From IMG/VR virus record IMGVR_UViG_3300044981_000210, positions 1 to 27,560 of that record: a stretch of DNA of 27,560 nucleotides. One strand, given 5' to 3'. The stretch is from a virus. This document shows positions 6,251-27,560 of this stretch, one piece after another. Position 1 is the first letter of the stretch, and the number at the start of each line of letters is the position of its first letter. The notes under the pieces are model-generated. The model ran no database searches and had not been told where the DNA came from. It saw only the letters and a list, made by a program, of their open reading frames with translations. The position numbers and the translations under genes are program-made.

Positions 6251-6422
6251 TCTTCGCCGTATTCTAAAAGAACGCGGCAACAATCGGCTCGCTGAGCAAG
6301 CACACTGGCCACATCGCCAAAGGCGCACTCTGAGTCAGGTGTCGATTGCAGCCTAAGCAACGGCTTAAAATTTGCTGGCTAGCGAACCTAAACCGCTGTG
6401 GGCAATCACACGACGGATTGCA
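6251..6422 (+). ncRNA. Structured inter-tRNA spacer with a closed three-hairpin element
   Basis: CAATCG (6281-6286) pairs with CGATTG (6343-6348). Inside are three hairpins: GCTC-GCT-GAGC, CGCC-AAA-GGCG and ACT-CTG-AGT. Further on are TAAGC-AACG-GCTTA and GCAAT/ATTGC pairings. The layout is cloverleaf-like, but there is no 7-base anticodon loop and no T-loop, so it is not called as a tRNA. Confidence 0.4.
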
Positions 6423-6488
6423 AAGTTTGACCGCCGACAGGTTCCTCCATGGGGAACGGTTGCGCGCTGGTAAAACCACTGGCGGTCA
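6423..6488 (+). ncRNA. AAGTTTGA element 1, stem-closed
   Basis: It opens with AAGTTTGA (6423-6430). TGACCGCC (6428-6435) pairs perfectly with GGCGGTCA (6481-6488). Inside is GTTCC-TCCATGG-GGAAC, a 5-bp stem with a 7-base loop like an anticodon arm (it would read CAT but lacks U33), and TGGT-AAA-ACCA. It could be a degenerate tRNA or a separate RNA. Confidence 0.4.
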
Positions 6489-6593
6489 TGAAGCGAGTAG
6501 CTGACCATAAATGGTTCGGGCGCGGTCCCTCAGTCCCGACAACTCGCACGACCGAGGCTCCCGGTCAATAAATATAGGAGCCCGGATTTCTGT
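6489..6593 (+). ncRNA. Structured spacer before tRNA-Leu(UAG)
   Basis: GCGAGT (6493-6498) pairs with ACTCGC (6542-6547) around ACCAT-AA-ATGGT and a CGGG/CCCG hairpin. Downstream, GGCTCC and GGAGCC (about 6556-6582) can pair, or GACCG can pair with CGGTC. No tRNA T-loop and no gene are seen. Confidence 0.35.
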
Positions 6594-6678
6594 GCCCTGT
6601 TGGTGGAACAGCAGACACATCGCGCTTAGAACGCGACGGTTAACAGCCATCGGAGTGCAAATCTCTGACGGGGTACCA
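6594..6678 (+). tRNA. tRNA-Leu (UAG)
   Basis: Acceptor GCCCTGT pairs with ACGGGGT (with G-U pairs). The anticodon arm TCGCG-CTTAGAA-CGCGA reads TAG. A variable arm and encoded CCA are present. The T-loop is TGCAAAT instead of the usual TTCRANT. Confidence 0.85.
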
Positions 6679-6754
6679 AGTTTGAACGTAAGGCGACACG
6701 AACATCGTAACCTTCGTGCCTGTGTCTCTGTGTTACGACTGAGAATACGTTCAA
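6679..6754 (+). ncRNA. AAGTTTGA element 2, stem-closed
   Basis: It begins directly at the CCA end of tRNA-Leu(UAG), with AAGTTTGA at 6678-6685. TTGAACGTA (6682-6690) pairs perfectly with TACGTTCAA (6746-6754). Inside, AGG...CACGAA pairs with TTCGTG...CCT. No anticodon or T-arm is seen. Confidence 0.45.
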
Positions 6755-6763
6755 TTAATTTGT

Positions 6764-6838
6764 GGGCTGTTCGTATATCGGACAATGCGCTCCGTTTCTA
6801 CCGGAGAGAGGCGGGTTCAATTCCGGCACAGTCTTCCA
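6764..6838 (+). tRNA. tRNA-Arg (UCU)
   Basis: Acceptor GGGCTGT pairs with ACAGTCT (two G-U). The anticodon arm CTCCG-TTTCTAC-CGGAG reads TCT. The T-loop is TTCAATT with one T-stem mismatch. CCA is encoded. Confidence 0.85.
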
Positions 6839-6846
6839 ATTCTAAT

Positions 6847-6931
6847 CGGCCTCTGGCGGAACAGCAGACGCACTCGCCTCAAGAGCGAGCGTCCTAGTGA
6901 CGTGAAGGTGCAAATCCTTCGTGGCCGACCA
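6847..6931 (+). tRNA. tRNA-Leu (CAA)
   Basis: Acceptor CGGCCTC pairs with GTGGCCG with one mismatch. The anticodon arm CTCGC-CTCAAGA-GCGAG reads CAA. It has a long variable arm, T-arm GAAGG-TGCAAAT-CCTTC and encoded CCA. The T-loop has the same unusual TGCAAAT as tRNA-Leu(UAG). Confidence 0.87.
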
Positions 6932-7015
6932 AGTTTAGAGCACAGGCTGGAAAGTATGTGCGAATCGGGAAATTAGGGTAGCTCCCTGACACCGTGAACC
7001 AGCCGCCCGACTAAA
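6932..7015 (+). ncRNA. AAGTTTAG element with possible pseudoknot
   Basis: It begins at the CCA of tRNA-Leu(CAA) with AAGTTTAG. TTTAG (6934-6938) pairs with CTAAA (7011-7015). GCAC/GTGC and TCGGG/CCCGA form inner stems, and AGGG-TAGCT-CCCT forms a hairpin. GGCTGG (6945-6950), in the loop of the first stem, is perfectly complementary to CCAGCC (6999-7004), a possible pseudoknot. Confidence 0.42.
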
Positions 7016-7022
7016 ATGATTT

Positions 7023-7056
7023 GCGCGTGTGGCGGAATGGCATACGTGGTGGACCA
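7023..7056 (+). pseudogene. tRNA-Leu fragment: 5' part joined to a CCA end
   Basis: Bases 7023-7048 resemble the acceptor and D-arm of the tRNA-Leu genes here (for example TGGCGGAATGGCATACG against TGACGGAATGGCAGACG). They run straight into GGTGGACCA and then AAGTTTGA, the junction that normally follows a complete tRNA. The anticodon, variable and T-arms are missing. An internal deletion or recombination between two tRNA genes would explain it. Confidence 0.55.
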
Positions 7057-7201
7057 AGTTTGATGCGGTGCCGAAAGGCACTACATGGTTAGTCTTAGCT
7101 AACCGCGCTGATTGTCACCAGCTGACTCGCGATTGAACGCAAGACTAAGATTCTAGCGCTCTCGACGGGCTCCAGCTTGCGAAGTGGGTGAACGCATCAA
7201 A
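7057..7201 (+). ncRNA. AAGTTTGA element 3, long and stem-closed
   Basis: TTTGATGCG (7059-7067) pairs perfectly with CGCATCAAA (7193-7201). Inside are the perfect GNRA hairpin GTGCC-GAAA-GGCAC (7068-7081) and GGTTAG-TCTTA-GCTAACC (about 7087-7103); TTAGTC and GACTAA can also pair. At 145 bases it is the longest of the family. No tRNA is seen in it. Confidence 0.45.
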
Positions 7202-7207
7202 AGTTTT

Positions 7208-7293
7208 GCGGTTGTGACGGAATGGCAGACGAGGACGCCTTAAAAGCGTCCGCTCTTCGGAGCTTGCTGGTTCGAGTCCAGCCAGCCGCACCA
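7208..7293 (+). tRNA. tRNA-Leu (UAA)
   Basis: Acceptor GCGGTTG pairs with CAGCCGC. The anticodon arm GACGC-CTTAAAA-GCGTC reads TAA. It has a long variable arm, T-arm GCTGG-TTCGAGT-CCAGC and encoded CCA. It is fully canonical. Confidence 0.93.
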
Positions 7294-7299
7294 AGACCT

Positions 7300-7398
7300 T
7301 GATTTTGTACGTTACCGCCGAAGGCCTCTTATAAAAGCGTAAAGGAGAGCGTCCACCGGGTAAAGCTGGTGGCGGTAATGGCGCTTATGATTTTGTAC
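7300..7398 (+). repeat. Structured spacer flanked by an 11-bp direct repeat
   Basis: TGATTTTGTAC occurs at 7300-7310 and again at 7388-7398. Between the copies TTACCGCC (7312-7319) pairs perfectly with GGCGGTAA (7371-7378), and CCACC pairs with GGTGG inside. It is another stem-closed element; the direct repeats suggest insertion or slippage at this point. Confidence 0.45.
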
Positions 7399-7410
7399 AA
7401 ACGGCCACTC

Positions 7411-7474
7411 AGCAGAGAGGCTACGCGACGCCAGTATACGGCGAGCGCAACGAAATTTCTCTGCTAATATTTTT
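7411..7474 (+). terminator. Possible terminator at the end of the first tRNA block
   Basis: AGCAGAG (7411-7417) pairs with CTCTGCT (7459-7465) around an inner CGCC-AGTATAC-GGCG hairpin, followed by AATATTTTTAG. The stem is interrupted, so termination efficiency is uncertain. Confidence 0.4.
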
Positions 7475-7662: not shown

Positions 7663-7665
7663 CGT

Positions 7666-7740
7666 GGGCTGTTCGTTTAGTCAGGAAGACACCTCGCTTG
7701 CACCGAGGAGTGCGCGGGGCAGAGCCGCGACGGTCCACCA
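7666..7740 (+). tRNA. tRNA-Ala (UGC)
   Basis: Acceptor GGGCTGT pairs with ACGGTCC (two G-U). The anticodon arm CCTCG-CTTGCAC-CGAGG reads TGC. The T-stem CGCGG/CCGCG is perfect, but its loop is GGCAGAG and lacks the TTC motif. CCA is encoded. The unusual T-loop leaves some doubt about function. Confidence 0.75.
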
Positions 7741-7750
7741 ATATGTCAAA

Positions 7751-7811
7751 GCATATAATTGTGGGCTTTAGATATAAAAACACATATTAAAGCCTATAAT
7801 AGTGGGCCTTA
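7751..7811 (+). repeat. 20-bp direct repeat with TATAAT motifs, plus hairpin
   Basis: GCATATAATTGTGGGCTTTA (7751-7770) recurs at 7792-7811 with 17 of 20 bases identical. GGCTTTA (7764-7770) also pairs perfectly with TAAAGCC (7788-7794). The TATAAT boxes lack matching -35 boxes, so promoter activity is not assumed. Confidence 0.5.
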
Positions 7812-7885
7812 AGGCGACAGTTGTTAATTTCTATGGGGCGTCCCGAAAGGGAAGGACAATGTGGCGAAAGCCAGCCCATCCAATT
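7812..7885 (+). ncRNA. Structured spacer with two GAAA-tetraloop hairpins
   Basis: CCC-GAAA-GGG (7842-7851) and GGC-GAAA-GCC (7863-7872) are GNRA hairpins. GTGGGC at about 7802 can pair with GCCCAT near 7875-7880 to close the element. It has no T-loop, so it is not a tRNA. Confidence 0.4.
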
Positions 7886-8583: not shown

Positions 8584-8723
8584 GTCGTGTGCGACCCAGT
8601 CGGCGTTGAATCGGGTTGACCTAGCGAGAAACTAGGAATACCTCCGCCCCCGCGCTAGCTACTTTATACCCGTTCTTTGTGGGATCTGCTTGAAATACAG
8701 TAGACGAAAGCTAGCCACACGAC
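8584..8723 (+). ncRNA. 140-base stem-closed structured RNA before the membrane-protein genes
   Basis: GTCGTGTG (8584-8591) pairs perfectly with CACACGAC (8716-8723), flanked by A/T-rich arms. Inside are CTAG-CGAGAAA-CTAG and a GCTAGC-TACT pairing with AGTA...GCTAGC. It ends seven bases before the ATG at 8731, so it could also act as a 5' leader controlling translation. Confidence 0.42.
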
Positions 8724-9391: not shown

Positions 9392-9811
9392 ATGGATATC
9401 CTTTACAAAATTTTATTGGGTGCAGAAATATCGGGGTTGGCGATTGTGGGGCTAATCGCAGTGTCCAAATTAATGGGTTATATTCGTCACAAGCTCTCGG
9501 GACCAGCACCCGTATTTGTGCCTTTGATAGATGTTGTAAAGCAAGAAGCGACAGCATCACGAGAAGGCTGGGCGCACAGAGCCCTGGTGGCCTTTGATAT
9601 AGCGTTTAATGTCATCGTTCTTCGGGGGCAACAAGACGAAACTATTAGCACGCATTCGGGACGAGCCGCCGCAGAAGGGCACTTGTGGGGCATATTGATG
9701 AGCGGTTGGCTTAATGGTTTTCAAGATAACCACTGTTTGAAAGCAGCGTCAGGGGATCTAGAAAGAGCAACGGCCAGAGTTACAACACTAAGAAAGTTTT
9801 TAGGTGTTTAA
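9392..9811 (+). CDS. Membrane-anchored protein of unknown function (139 aa)
   Basis: One membrane segment spans about residues 8-30 (LLGAEISGLAIVGLIAVSKL). A soluble domain then holds D-x-A-F-N-V-x-V-L-x-G-Q-x-D-E-T-I-S-T-H-S-x-R-A-A at about residues 68-93 and W-L-N-x-F-Q-x-x-H-C at 106-115. The conserved-looking charged residues (D, E, T, H, R) suggest a binding or catalytic site. I recall similar phage proteins with no assigned role. The stop overlaps the start of the GIY-YIG gene (TAATG). Confidence 0.7.
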   Translation: MDILYKILLGAEISGLAIVGLIAVSKLMGYIRHKLSGPAPVFVPLIDVVKQEATASREGWAHRALVAFDIAFNVIVLRGQQDETISTHSGRAAAEGHLWGILMSGWLNGFQDNHCLKAASGDLERATARVTTLRKFLGV

Positions 9812-10422
9812 TGATCTACATGGCGTATAACCCAATTTCTGAAAAGTATTATATTGGGCAAACAGTAGATTTAGCTAGGAGAAAAAGGGAGCATAAAGGC
9901 GAAGCCAACTCCGGTTGTTCTTTTTCTTTTCACCGAGCATTACGTAAGTACGGTGTAGATATTTTTGAGTGGCGCGTTCTTTCTGATGACTCGTCCTCGG
10001 ATGGTATGAACTCAAGAGAGACGTTGTTGATTTGGGCGTTCCGAGCAGACGATCCTGATTACGGATACAATATGTCCGTTGGCGGCGTTGGCGGCGGTAT
10101 GCTCGGTCGTAAACACACAGACGAATCTAAACAGAAAATGAGCAAGGCGCTCAAAGGAAGAGTGTTTTCTCCAGAGACGTTAGCTAGAATGAGCGCCGCT
10201 CAGAAAGGTAAGCAAAGCCCTAAAAAGGGCAAGCCTCAGTGGAGCGAAGAAGAAAAGAAGCGCATAGGCGACATCCACCGAGGTAAGAGGATATCCGAAC
10301 AGCAAAAGAAGCTAATTAGCGAAAGTCTTAAAGGGCGGCTATTTTCTATTGAGACTAGGCAAAAAATAAGCGCTGCTTTAAAAGGCCGCAAAGCCCCTTG
10401 GAATAAAAAGAAAATCCCATGA
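9811..10422 (+). CDS. GIY-YIG homing endonuclease with NUMOD3 repeats (203 aa)
   Basis: The catalytic domain occupies residues 1-90: YYIGQT (13-18) for the YIG motif, Arg and His at RRKREH (23-28), the metal-binding Glu in SRETLL (70), and a final GYN motif (85-87). Residues 98-195 hold at least four NUMOD3-type DNA-binding repeats (pattern F-S-x-E-T-x-x-K-x-S-x-A-x-K-G-R). This is the SegA/Mob type of free-standing homing endonuclease, which cuts DNA of phages lacking the gene and so spreads. It lies just before the second tRNA cluster, a usual place for such genes. Confidence 0.92.
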   Translation: MIYMAYNPISEKYYIGQTVDLARRKREHKGEANSGCSFSFHRALRKYGVDIFEWRVLSDDSSSDGMNSRETLLIWAFRADDPDYGYNMSVGGVGGGMLGRKHTDESKQKMSKALKGRVFSPETLARMSAAQKGKQSPKKGKPQWSEEEKKRIGDIHRGKRISEQQKKLISESLKGRLFSIETRQKISAALKGRKAPWNKKKIP

Positions 10423-10574: not shown

Positions 10575-10663
10575 GGAGGGCAGCGCTGAATGTTCGGCAA
10601 CGGTCCCGAAAACCGAGACAACTCGAAAGGGTTGACAGAGTTAGATTCTCTGGCCCTCCTCCA
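10575..10663 (+). tRNA. tRNA-Ser (CGA), atypical loops
   Basis: Acceptor GGAGGGC pairs with GCCCTCC, the same sequence as the neighbouring tRNA-Ser(GCU). The anticodon loop CCCGAAA reads CGA but has C rather than U at position 33. The variable arm CAAC...GTTG is present. The T-stem CAGAG/CTCTG is perfect with loop TTAGATT instead of TTCRANT. CCA is encoded. The loop changes suggest drift or unusual modification. Confidence 0.75.
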
Positions 10664-12380: not shown

Positions 12381-13460
12381 ATGTCGGTTACTTCGCAGTT
12401 ACTTACGGCCGGAAATTATGCGGTGCTCGCCTTTAGTGGTATCACGAATAGCGGATTAACCGTTATCTCCGGCGGAAACATCGGGTCTGCCCCCACAACG
12501 ACAGAGACGGGATTCCCCCCAGGTGTTCTTTCTCCGCCCGCCGTCGTTGATAACGCCGATGCGACCCAAGCCAGGGTTGATGGTTTAGCCGCATTTAATG
12601 CTTTCGCAGCACTGGCGTTCACGTCTCTAGGCGCGTCCTCTGTCAATCTCTCCGTTTCAGGTAATGGCTCTTCAGCTTCTACCTACACCCCCGGCAACTA
12701 TTCTGCTGGAACAAGCATGGATATTCCTACAAGCATCACACTGGATGCGCAAGGAAATCCGAACGCCGTGTTCATTTTCAAAGCGGGTTCTACGGTTACT
12801 TTGGAAAGTGGCGCGTCCGTCCTCTTGGTTAACGGCGCAAACGCCGCGAACGTTGTTTGGCTTGTGGGATCGTCCTTCACGTCCATCTTTGCGGGCACGT
12901 CAGTTATGGTTGGCCAAATTCTCGCTAAAGTTTCTATCACGCTGGGCGGCGGAGTTCTGAGTGGTCGTGCCTTGGCTGGTTTGGGAAACGCCAGCGGCGC
13001 GGTAACTATTTCCACAGCGGAAGCAATCACTGTTCCGGCTGTGGCCGCCACTTCAAATGTCGGCAGTTCGCCAACCTCAGCGGGCGGCTCTATGCAGTGT
13101 CTTATCTCTCAAAATCTAGGCACGTCTATTATCGCCGCGTGGCCTCAAAATAGCCCCGGCGTTGGAGGGCAGTTTCTCGACTTGGTGCAGATTGTTGATG
13201 AAGGCGGCGGATTTGTTTTGAACGTGGACTTCGCTGGTTCTGTCCACTACCCCGCTGTTCTGCCCACTAACGGATATAGAATCGGTCAATATCTTACTCG
13301 TTTCGGTTTGGCTGGAAGCGGACTTCCTGTTACAACTTTAGCCCAAGTTATGCACGACGCGTTCACCAACCCCCAAGGTCTAGATATCATACAATGCATC
13401 AATGTGGGAGGGAATGTGAGCTATTGGTGGGACCAAAACGGGGTGGCACACGGTTCGTGA
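12381..13460 (+). CDS. Virion protein with ice-binding-like (DUF3494-like) domain (359 aa)
   Basis: Residues about 3-220 read like a DUF3494 domain: AGNYAVLAFSGITNSGLTVI with GGNIGSAP, then TGFPPGVLSPP, an A-x-x-D-G-L-A-A-F-N-A-F helix, TYTPGNYSAGTSMDIPTSITLDAQGNPNAVFIF in pieces, and ANVVWLVGSSFTSI. DUF3494 proteins are discontinuous beta solenoids; known members bind ice, and many others act in adhesion. Residues about 235-359 form a separate C-terminal domain with aromatic motifs (SYWWDQNG). In this block it is most likely an appendage that binds a surface or polymer. The domain assignment is by pattern only. Confidence 0.75.
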   Translation: MSVTSQLLTAGNYAVLAFSGITNSGLTVISGGNIGSAPTTTETGFPPGVLSPPAVVDNADATQARVDGLAAFNAFAALAFTSLGASSVNLSVSGNGSSASTYTPGNYSAGTSMDIPTSITLDAQGNPNAVFIFKAGSTVTLESGASVLLVNGANAANVVWLVGSSFTSIFAGTSVMVGQILAKVSITLGGGVLSGRALAGLGNASGAVTISTAEAITVPAVAATSNVGSSPTSAGGSMQCLISQNLGTSIIAAWPQNSPGVGGQFLDLVQIVDEGGGFVLNVDFAGSVHYPAVLPTNGYRIGQYLTRFGLAGSGLPVTTLAQVMHDAFTNPQGLDIIQCINVGGNVSYWWDQNGVAHGS

Positions 13461-25445: not shown

Positions 25446-27560
25446 ATGTCCACCGAAGTTGAACCAATAGTAGTACAAGGCCCTTTAACAAACACCCAAA
25501 ACAAAGCCAATAGTCGTCGCAAACAAAAAGGTCTGCCGCCGAAATACGTGCGCATTCTTAAAGAGGATGTCGAGAGACAAACTACTAGACATCAGGATGC
25601 TCTTGCGTTTGCCCAGTCAGAAGACACAAAGGGGTATTACAAAAGCGAGTGCCGCTCTTCTGTTGAGTTACTAGGTATTTACGAAGGCGGCGGTTTACAA
25701 GAAGCGGACGAAGACGACAGCGATGATGACGAAGGGACCAGCGCAGCAAAAGCCAAGAAAGAACCGAAGTCAAAAAACCCCAACCCCTCGCTTAAGGCAA
25801 TAGAGATCCCCGAGTTTGAACGTGATGTTGAGCACGGTGTTCTCGATCCCTCTTTTACGATAACGTCTTTCCAAGATTGGCTTAAATATCGAGACAAAGC
25901 CCGCAAAGACTTATACTGGCTTTGCAAGTTGCTAGGGAAAGATTTGTTTCCCGGAGTCCATCAAGTTATTTGCGATTGCTTTGTGTCTAAAGACTTCGAT
26001 GGTATGTACCACAAAGGGTACACACTCGGCCAGTTCCACAAGATGATCGACGCCCAAAAGCGCTTCGACGCCAACGGAAACCCCACAAAAGAGATGATGC
26101 TCCTAGACTCTCGTGGGTTTTTTAAGAGTACGATTAACGGCATAGATTGTGTCCAATGGCTGCTTAACGCCCCTGACGCCCACATTTTTATTTTAACGGG
26201 AGAGTATAAGCTTGCCATACAGTTTTTGCAGGAAATTAAAGACTATTTTTATCTTCCGAGAGGCGGAGAACCCTCGGTTTTCCAGCTCTTGTTTCCAGAG
26301 TATATACTAACAGGTGTGGCGGGAAAATCTAAGCAGCCGCTAAGATGCCCCGCTAGGATTTTGAAGCAGAAAGGTAACAGTCTTTGGGTTAACGCCATTG
26401 TGGCGAACCTATCCGGTTGGCATTGCGACATCAAAAAAGGCGACGACATCGTCACCGACGAGAACTCAAATACGGAAGAAGCTCGTGCAACAATCAAAAT
26501 GAAGTACGACGGTACCGACGATCTTCTTGATCCTCACGGTTTTAGCGATCACATCGGGACGAGATATTTCACGGATGATTGGTACGGAACGCGACTTCAA
26601 GCCGATAAAGAAAGCGGCGAAATCGCCGCCGTCAAATATTTTAAACGCGGCTGTTGGGTAGTAAAACCCGAGTATGCAAATATACCCTTGACGATGCTGA
26701 CGGAGGAGATGGTTAAATTAACCTTTCCTCAACTCGGTAAAACTCCGTCAGAGGCGTTTAAGAAGCTCCGTCAAAAACTACTTAAGAAATCAGAGCGTTC
26801 TTTTCGCAATCAGCAACTTAACGAGCCAACAGACGCCAAAGAAGATAGCGGGTTTGTTGTTCACTTCAGTGATGTGGCGCTCCGCGCCCACAGCTATCCC
26901 AAGGAATCTGCTCCCCGCGAAGGCGACGTGTTTGTTTCTTGGGATTGGGCATATTCAGATAAAAAAACATCTGATTATTCCGTTGGCATAGCGGCCCGAG
27001 TCTATCAGCTTAAAGACGGTCGTTGGGGTCTTTGTATTTTAGACGTAGTCATAGACAAATGGCGTTCCTCCGAGTTGGTATACCAGATCATTGCCTTTGA
27101 CAAGAAGTGGAACCCAAAACGAACTCTTATCGAGAACTCGAACGGGGCCGAACTTCTAAAAATGGCAATCATGCAAAAGGCCCAAGTTTTGGGCTCGGAC
27201 ATCATTCATAGAATTTATTGGATGCCGGTTTCAACGCAACCAAACGCTAAAAAGAACAGAGTCAAAAGTCTCGAAATATTGCTCGAAGACGACAGACTCT
27301 ATTTTGTGAACGGCGCGTGGATGGATATAATTTTCTCCCAGCTATGTAAGTACACAGGCGAAAAAAGTTCAGCCTTTAAAAAAGACGACGGGCCAGACGC
27401 AATGGCGTACCTGGTGGAATTTTTGCCTAAGTCGGCGTTGAAGAGAGACGTTGATCCCGAAGAAGCGGAGAAGGAAGCAGAGCAAATAGCGGCAAAAGAA
27501 AGATTGGTCGCTTGGAAGAAAAAGATCTTCGGAGGCGATGACGGCGGTGGTGTTGGGGTT
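25446..27560 (+). CDS. terL: Terminase large subunit, partial (runs off the right edge)
   Basis: The frame is open for 705 codons to the last base. The Walker A motif is LLDSRGFFKST (residues 219-229), a variant of the usual P-R-G-x-G-K-S-T. Walker B is DDIVTDE (333-339). The nuclease domain begins FVSWDWAYSDKKTSDYSVG, with the first metal-binding Asp at 500, and the late acidic motif GPDAMAY has Asp651. Together these are the ATPase and nuclease of the phage DNA-packaging motor. The first ~150 residues are an unusual extension with an acidic run (EADEDDSDDDE, about residues 84-94) before the ATPase. The C-terminus is Lys/Glu-rich and incomplete. Confidence 0.93.
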   Translation, partial: MSTEVEPIVVQGPLTNTQNKANSRRKQKGLPPKYVRILKEDVERQTTRHQDALAFAQSEDTKGYYKSECRSSVELLGIYEGGGLQEADEDDSDDDEGTSAAKAKKEPKSKNPNPSLKAIEIPEFERDVEHGVLDPSFTITSFQDWLKYRDKARKDLYWLCKLLGKDLFPGVHQVICDCFVSKDFDGMYHKGYTLGQFHKMIDAQKRFDANGNPTKEMMLLDSRGFFKSTINGIDCVQWLLNAPDAHIFILTGEYKLAIQFLQEIKDYFYLPRGGEPSVFQLLFPEYILTGVAGKSKQPLRCPARILKQKGNSLWVNAIVANLSGWHCDIKKGDDIVTDENSNTEEARATIKMKYDGTDDLLDPHGFSDHIGTRYFTDDWYGTRLQADKESGEIAAVKYFKRGCWVVKPEYANIPLTMLTEEMVKLTFPQLGKTPSEAFKKLRQKLLKKSERSFRNQQLNEPTDAKEDSGFVVHFSDVALRAHSYPKESAPREGDVFVSWDWAYSDKKTSDYSVGIAARVYQLKDGRWGLCILDVVIDKWRSSELVYQIIAFDKKWNPKRTLIENSNGAELLKMAIMQKAQVLGSDIIHRIYWMPVSTQPNAKKNRVKSLEILLEDDRLYFVNGAWMDIIFSQLCKYTGEKSSAFKKDDGPDAMAYLVEFLPKSALKRDVDPEEAEKEAEQIAAKERLVAWKKKIFGGDDGGGVGV

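Follow-up and report, generated by a model that had tools for sequence, protein, structure and literature searches.

What lies between the tRNA genes of this phage? The window, which is the whole 27,560-base record of an uncultured phage, contains four inter-tRNA segments (6423-6488, 6679-6754, 6932-7015 and 7057-7201; segments 1 to 4) that a first-pass annotation had described as a repeated RNA unit with a common AAGTTT opening. All four are present at these positions, and the perfect closing stems of 8-9 bp claimed for three of them were confirmed (8 bp in segment 1, 9 bp each in segments 2 and 4). Neither ARAGORN nor Rfam (RF00005) detected a tRNA, with cloverleaf, anticodon and T arm, inside the segments, in agreement with the same annotation, and a search of the region against Rfam 15, permissive search included, returned only tRNA matches.

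The clade was reached by a terminase search and a pattern scan for tRNA ends. The terminase large subunit (TerL) of the window was 36-62% identical to those of IMG/VR relatives (best segment; 80 loci, among the matches listed), that of G023 being the closest among the matches listed, and the nearest TerL of a named phage was that of Tunturiibacter phage Tunturi_3 (27%). Searches of named phages gave no matches for the window DNA and two of its proteins, and weak partial matches only for a third protein. An acidobacterial host is only hinted at, through the distant Tunturi_3. In 18 of the arrays examined, 20-34 tRNA genes were detected in a broadly common order, and the terminase was downstream of the array wherever both were on the same contig. 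The window array is reduced, with 11 tRNAs by ARAGORN, and relatives carry more. For the cultured phage Tunturi 5, 43 tRNA genes are on record (PMC11924767).

Table 1. Features of the window discussed in the text (window positions).
Feature	Position	Strand	Remark
Probable Leu(tag) family RNA	6402-6593	+	segment 1 (6423-6488) as 5' domain; start set by model, may be early
TTGCAA palindrome	6418-6423	+	
Segment 1 stem	6428-6435/6481-6488	+	perfect, 8 bp
Hairpin	6441-6445/6453-6457	+	
Hairpin	6458-6461/6474-6477	+	loop GCGCGC+TGGTAA, 6462-6473
Stem	6493-6498/6542-6547	+	
Hairpin	6550-6554/6562-6566	+	loop 6556-6561 pseudoknotted to 6577-6582
tRNA-Leu(tag)	6594-6678	+	ARAGORN, Rfam; upstream neighbour of segment 2
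Segment 2 with linkers	6679-6763	+	closing stem 6682-6690/6746-6754, perfect, 9 bp
Segment 2 possible hairpin	6697-6702/6713-6718	+	
Segment 2 possible loop pseudoknot	6705-6711/6732-6738	+	complementarity
tRNA-Leu(caa)	6847-6931	+	ARAGORN, Rfam; upstream neighbour of segment 3
Segment 3	6932-7015	+	homologue with compensatory changes
Segment 3 closing stem	6934-6938/7011-7015	+	only 5 bp (TTTAG/CTAAA)
Segment 3 hairpin	6940-6944/6957-6961	+	
Segment 3 possible loop pseudoknot	6945-6950/6999-7004	+	
Segment 3 stem	6965-6969/7006-7010	+	
Segment 3 hairpin	around 6975-6987	+	
Truncated tRNA-Leu	7023-7056	+	5' part fused to GGACCA end; between segments 3 and 4
Segment 4 RNA	7057-7203	+	four family members, covariation
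Segment 4 closing stem	7059-7067/7193-7201	+	perfect, 9 bp
Segment 4 GNRA hairpin	7068-7081	+	loop 7073-7076
Segment 4 hairpin	7087-7104	+	loop 7093-7098 pseudoknotted to 7145-7150
Segment 4 inner stem	7115-7119/7187-7191	+	changes on both sides
tRNA-Leu(taa)	7208-7293	+	ARAGORN, Rfam; downstream neighbour of segment 4
Terminase large subunit (TerL)	25446-27560		

Several other features were observed in the window and in related arrays. A tRNA-Ala(tgc)-like gene at 7664-7740 was missed by ARAGORN (Rfam 7666-7737, 31.6 bits), and the stretch at 10575-10662, read from the sequence, resembles a tRNA-Ser(cga) that was likewise missed; relatives carry Ser(cga) at the matching place. A homing endonuclease gene (9811-10422; PHROG 314, E 2e-34) lies within the tRNA region, as segB does in the T4 tRNA cluster, and the product of the gene at 12381-13460 contains an ice-binding-like domain (Pfam PF11999, E 8.6e-34). 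Bacterial class A RNase P RNA was found in the tRNA arrays of two relatives (L277:1782-2071 in G028 and L327:6041-6341 in G043), with scores of 102 and 102.3, just above the Rfam gathering score of 100. Gaps in G002 and G034 resemble RNase P RNA by eye, and none was seen in the window.

We examined the AAGTTT opening across the clade. The commonest five bases after a tRNA CCA were ATTTT and AGTTT, which occurred in 50 and 32 of the 208 short gaps and in 27 and 40 of the 207 long gaps. Short gaps approach A(T/G)TTTC(T/A)GT, and many junctions in the same arrays consist of a linker of 5-11 nt and nothing more. Similar sequence was found at both ends of long gaps, with TTT within the first six bases in 68% and within the last nine in 75%, compared with 4% and 6% inside. 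Since AAGTTT-like sequence occurs in short and long gaps alike, AAGTTT marks the linker: judged from the gap sequences, A(G/T)TTT serves the array as its usual linker after a CCA and is not the signature of any element, and AAGTTT was ruled out as the shared mark of a family. Because linker-like sequence stands at both ends of a long gap, such a gap is read as linker, element and linker. Segment 1 is the exception: no tRNA CCA precedes it, and the AAGTTT there is probably not equivalent to the one in segments 2-4. No homology was found between segments 1-4, which belong to different families and not to one repeated unit.

Stems and folding energies were compared with those of shuffled sequences. 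Between 5.9 and 10.9 kb, perfect stems of at least 8 bp numbered 20, about twice the 11.5 ± 2.7 in dinucleotide shuffles. For the array-wide test we took 140 gaps of 55-260 nt, of which 101 had no tRNA-like sequence and 86 remained after collapsing homologues. Stems of at least 8 bp joining the gap ends numbered 24 against 8.0 expected (maximum of 2000 permutations, 19), and those of at least 9 bp numbered 15 against 2.8 (permutation maximum, 9). The folding z-scores of segments 1-4 were -2.2, -1.5, -0.6 and -3.5, so that folding energy alone supports only segments 1 and 4, segments 2 and 3 being little better than shuffles, and comparison decides. Loop pseudoknots were also considered as a general design and set aside, with only a moderate excess (44 gaps versus 27 in shuffles).

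Some element clusters occur at more than one tRNA junction, and several gave no consensus structure, perhaps through mixed sequences. The Gln(ttg)-Gln(ctg) gaps (e.g., L313:11871-11968) hold a conserved, stem-closed RNA of ~99 nt with covarying pairs in about eight phages. More stem-closed stretches were seen in the window array (7312-7378, 7411-7465 and 8584-8723); in addition, 7399-7453 has a homologue in G032, and 7741-7811 and 7851-7884 match sequence from the arrays of L286 and L262 at 80% and 89% identity.

Homologues of segment 4 were found in G001 (L007) and G002 (L082) by scanning for tRNA ends followed by CCAAGTTTGA, and a fourth member, in G032 (L284), was reached through the terminase search. 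Every member, the window included, follows the CCA of a tRNA-Leu; in the three relatives the RNA lies directly after Leu(caa), and in the window the CCA is that of the truncated tRNA-Leu. Changes on both sides were found in 11 of the 39 pairs, pseudoknot pairs among them, which none of 500 shuffles reproduced, and slid controls gave at most 3. The hexaloop pseudoknot takes the forms UCUUAG/CUAAGA, UCUAAG/CUUAGA and UCUCGG/CCGAGA; shuffles often contain loop pseudoknots of this type, and the evidence for this one is therefore its covariation alone. Both the GNRA loop and the possible pseudoknot of the first-pass annotation lie in this segment and are conserved with covariation. The closing stem is kept in the relatives, being invariant in all four members, as is helix 50-53/99-102, and since neither ever varies, covariation itself does not prove either. 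The window copy has the covarying helices, the GNRA hairpin and the pseudoknot, and is itself among the sequences that define the family. These results support segment 4 as a new small RNA family, as had been proposed, with covariation in four phages. Model R1 found no fifth member among 49 related records (next best, E 0.027), and scans with the core pattern returned known members and chance matches only, with no match in the genome contigs collection.

Segment 3 has one homologue, in G017 (L329:2875-2957), which is 88% identical over 84 nt and likewise follows Leu(caa). In G017, GCACA/TGTGC is replaced by GTGCG/CGCAC and GGG/CCC by GGT/ACC, and two hairpins are thus compensatory, supporting the view that segment 3 is a structured RNA. 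Compensatory changes in related phages, a check that had been suggested, were therefore seen for segments 4 and 3. The possible loop pseudoknot of segment 3 is invariant in both sequences and hence unproven. A pattern scan for segment 3 gave no match in the viral contigs collection. The hairpin GGG-UAGCU-CCC (window 6975-6987), or a close variant, recurs among different elements in several related arrays.

Segment 2 is an orphan, with no homologue found in related arrays. Its possible 7-bp loop pseudoknot was equalled by 31 of 400 shuffles, and the frame formed by its two ends (TTTGAACG...CGTTCAATTAATTT) is similar to that of a Glu-Glu gap in G043. The proposal that the segments are structured RNA rather than spacer thus stood for segment 4 (covariation), segment 3 (homologue) and probably segment 1, with segment 2 as a candidate only.

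We investigated segment 1 together with the gap that contains it. In 14 related arrays, an RNA of about 150 nt was found in the gap that precedes tRNA-Leu(tag). Nine sequences of this family showed two-sided changes at 17 pairs (0 of 500 shuffles), and its model recovered six members outside the building set, one of which (G006) is at a different junction. The hexamer that precedes TGGT in one hairpin loop is a palindrome in 15 of the 16 sequences (the window and G023 among them), and six different palindromes occur. Half-permutation of the hexamers never matched this in 100,000 trials, and 24 of 100,000 trials matched it when the seven distinct hexamers were used; where TGGT occurred more than once the palindromic site was taken, which favours the count slightly, and the 16 sequences are related. 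In the window, model R2 gave 3.9 bits (E 6.6) over 6528-6593. Model R3, a second attempt with a wider set built after R2 failed to place the window, returned 6402-6593 as the best match in 5.1 kb, a weak one (8.4 bits, E 0.15). G023, which scored 16.2 bits (E 0.0019), aligns with the window over this stretch, which ends GCCCGGATTTCTGT, adjoining Leu(tag). Read from the sequence, the window has the gap before Leu(tag), the palindromic hexamer with TGGTAA and the 3' hairpin pseudoknot of the family, and segment 1 is probably the 5' part of a Leu(tag) family RNA.

The conserved palindromic loop hexamer suggests kissing-loop dimers. The dimer initiation loop of HIV-1 is a palindromic hexamer in a hairpin loop, with GCGCGC and GUGCAC among its forms. 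The Leu(tag) loop shares these two hexamers with it, an analogy of working between unrelated RNAs. The likeliest special property of the Leu(tag) RNA would be self-association through the palindromic loop and the 5' palindrome. A more far-reaching proposal, which we regard as possible and rather doubtful, is that the clade carries varied structured RNAs among its ~30 tRNAs and that one of them (~6402-6593) would self-assemble during infection via its palindromes into RNA-only dimers or oligomers.

How would such elements be produced, and what might they do? We consider it fairly probable that the segments are separate small structured non-coding RNAs, or parts of them, which occupy tRNA-like slots of the array and would be freed by tRNA processing. 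The elements would be transcribed together with the neighbouring tRNAs and set free as the flanking tRNAs mature, the closing stem and pseudoknots would protect the freed RNA, and it would act in trans; our preferred guess is a stable RNA with a protein or RNA as its binding partner during infection. Release as discrete RNAs fits the conservation of the folds, the linkers that flank them on either side and the recurrence of clusters at different junctions. The main rival, which we hold to be unlikely, is a cis role in processing, in which the elements are precursor parts, folded spacers that hold large tRNAs apart or offer the pre-tRNA to processing enzymes before being degraded. Segment 4 (known from four phages only), segment 3 and the Gln-Gln element each keep to one slot, segments 3 and 4 always directly after Leu(caa) or its remnant, and a cis role predicts the same. 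However, many junctions of the same arrays hold no more than a linker of 5-11 nt, the element is absent from the same junction in relatives, and certain clusters are found at a number of different junctions. Such short linkers also make a tRNA-processing signal, one of the functions first suggested, a poorer fit.

Theta ribozymes, which are HDV-like and come from gut phages, have been described as lying no more than 5 nt from the 3' ends of phage tRNAs (PMC10879173), and the window elements resemble them in being pseudoknotted and directly 3' of phage tRNA ends. It is nevertheless very improbable that the elements are self-cleaving ribozymes forming the tRNA 3' end. The tRNAs beside theta ribozymes mostly have no encoded CCA, whereas CCA is encoded here; the opening bases of the elements are paired to the distant 3' end, in contrast to an HDV P1; and no Rfam ribozyme matched. 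A rough HDV-like descriptor (nested double pseudoknot, P1 at the tRNA 3' end) had 0 matches in the segments and 2 in 655 tRNA flanks, versus 3 after shuffling.

We give almost no credence to a line of degenerate tRNAs. A genuine tRNA-Leu remnant does lie between segments 3 and 4 (at 7020-7049, the 5' part of Leu(taa) from L066 is matched with 97% identity; repeats D2 and D8), and the relatives have more tRNAs than the window, but segments 3 and 4 have conserved folds other than the cloverleaf, which relatives keep beside intact tRNAs; the idea was rejected for the segments, by direct contradiction in the case of segments 3 and 4, and segment 2 may yet be of this kind. Ordinary spacer with chance stems, which the shuffle-like folding of segments 2 and 3 and the missing homologue of segment 2 would favour, is just as implausible overall: segments 3 and 4 contradict it by their covariation, and closing stems are in excess across the array, although segment 2 by itself may be such spacer.

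For separate RNAs released from the array, the closest known kind by analogy is T4 rnaC and rnaD, to which no homology was detected. In the T4 record, the tRNA cluster includes rnaC and rnaD (species 1 and 2 RNAs), annotated as small stable RNAs (139 and 119 nt); rnaD adjoins tRNA-Arg, and neither has an Rfam match in T4. The window elements are likewise placed within a phage tRNA cluster and have no Rfam match, whereas T4 has two such RNAs at one cluster end and here many different elements are dispersed through the array. A search of the T4 stretch with the segment 4 model R1 gave no significant match. ROOL and GOLLD are phage RNAs of unknown function that often lie near tRNA islands and form RNA-only complexes (PMC12286853). 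GOLLD is far larger (over 800 nt), and oligomerisation of the window RNA is only predicted. The ROOL and GOLLD models of Rfam had no match in the window or in the relative that holds both segment 4 and Leu(tag) RNAs, and that relative had no Rfam match beyond tRNA. A search of the open-licence literature, which is weak evidence, found no account of these RNAs.

The families are small and their structures testable; for the Leu(tag) family, a palindrome swap is predicted to keep the dimers and breakage of the palindrome to lose them. The usual view of a phage tRNA array is one of tRNAs with filler between them. If the reading of separate RNAs is true, some of this filler would consist of conserved RNA genes of a kind comparable to T4 rnaC and rnaD.
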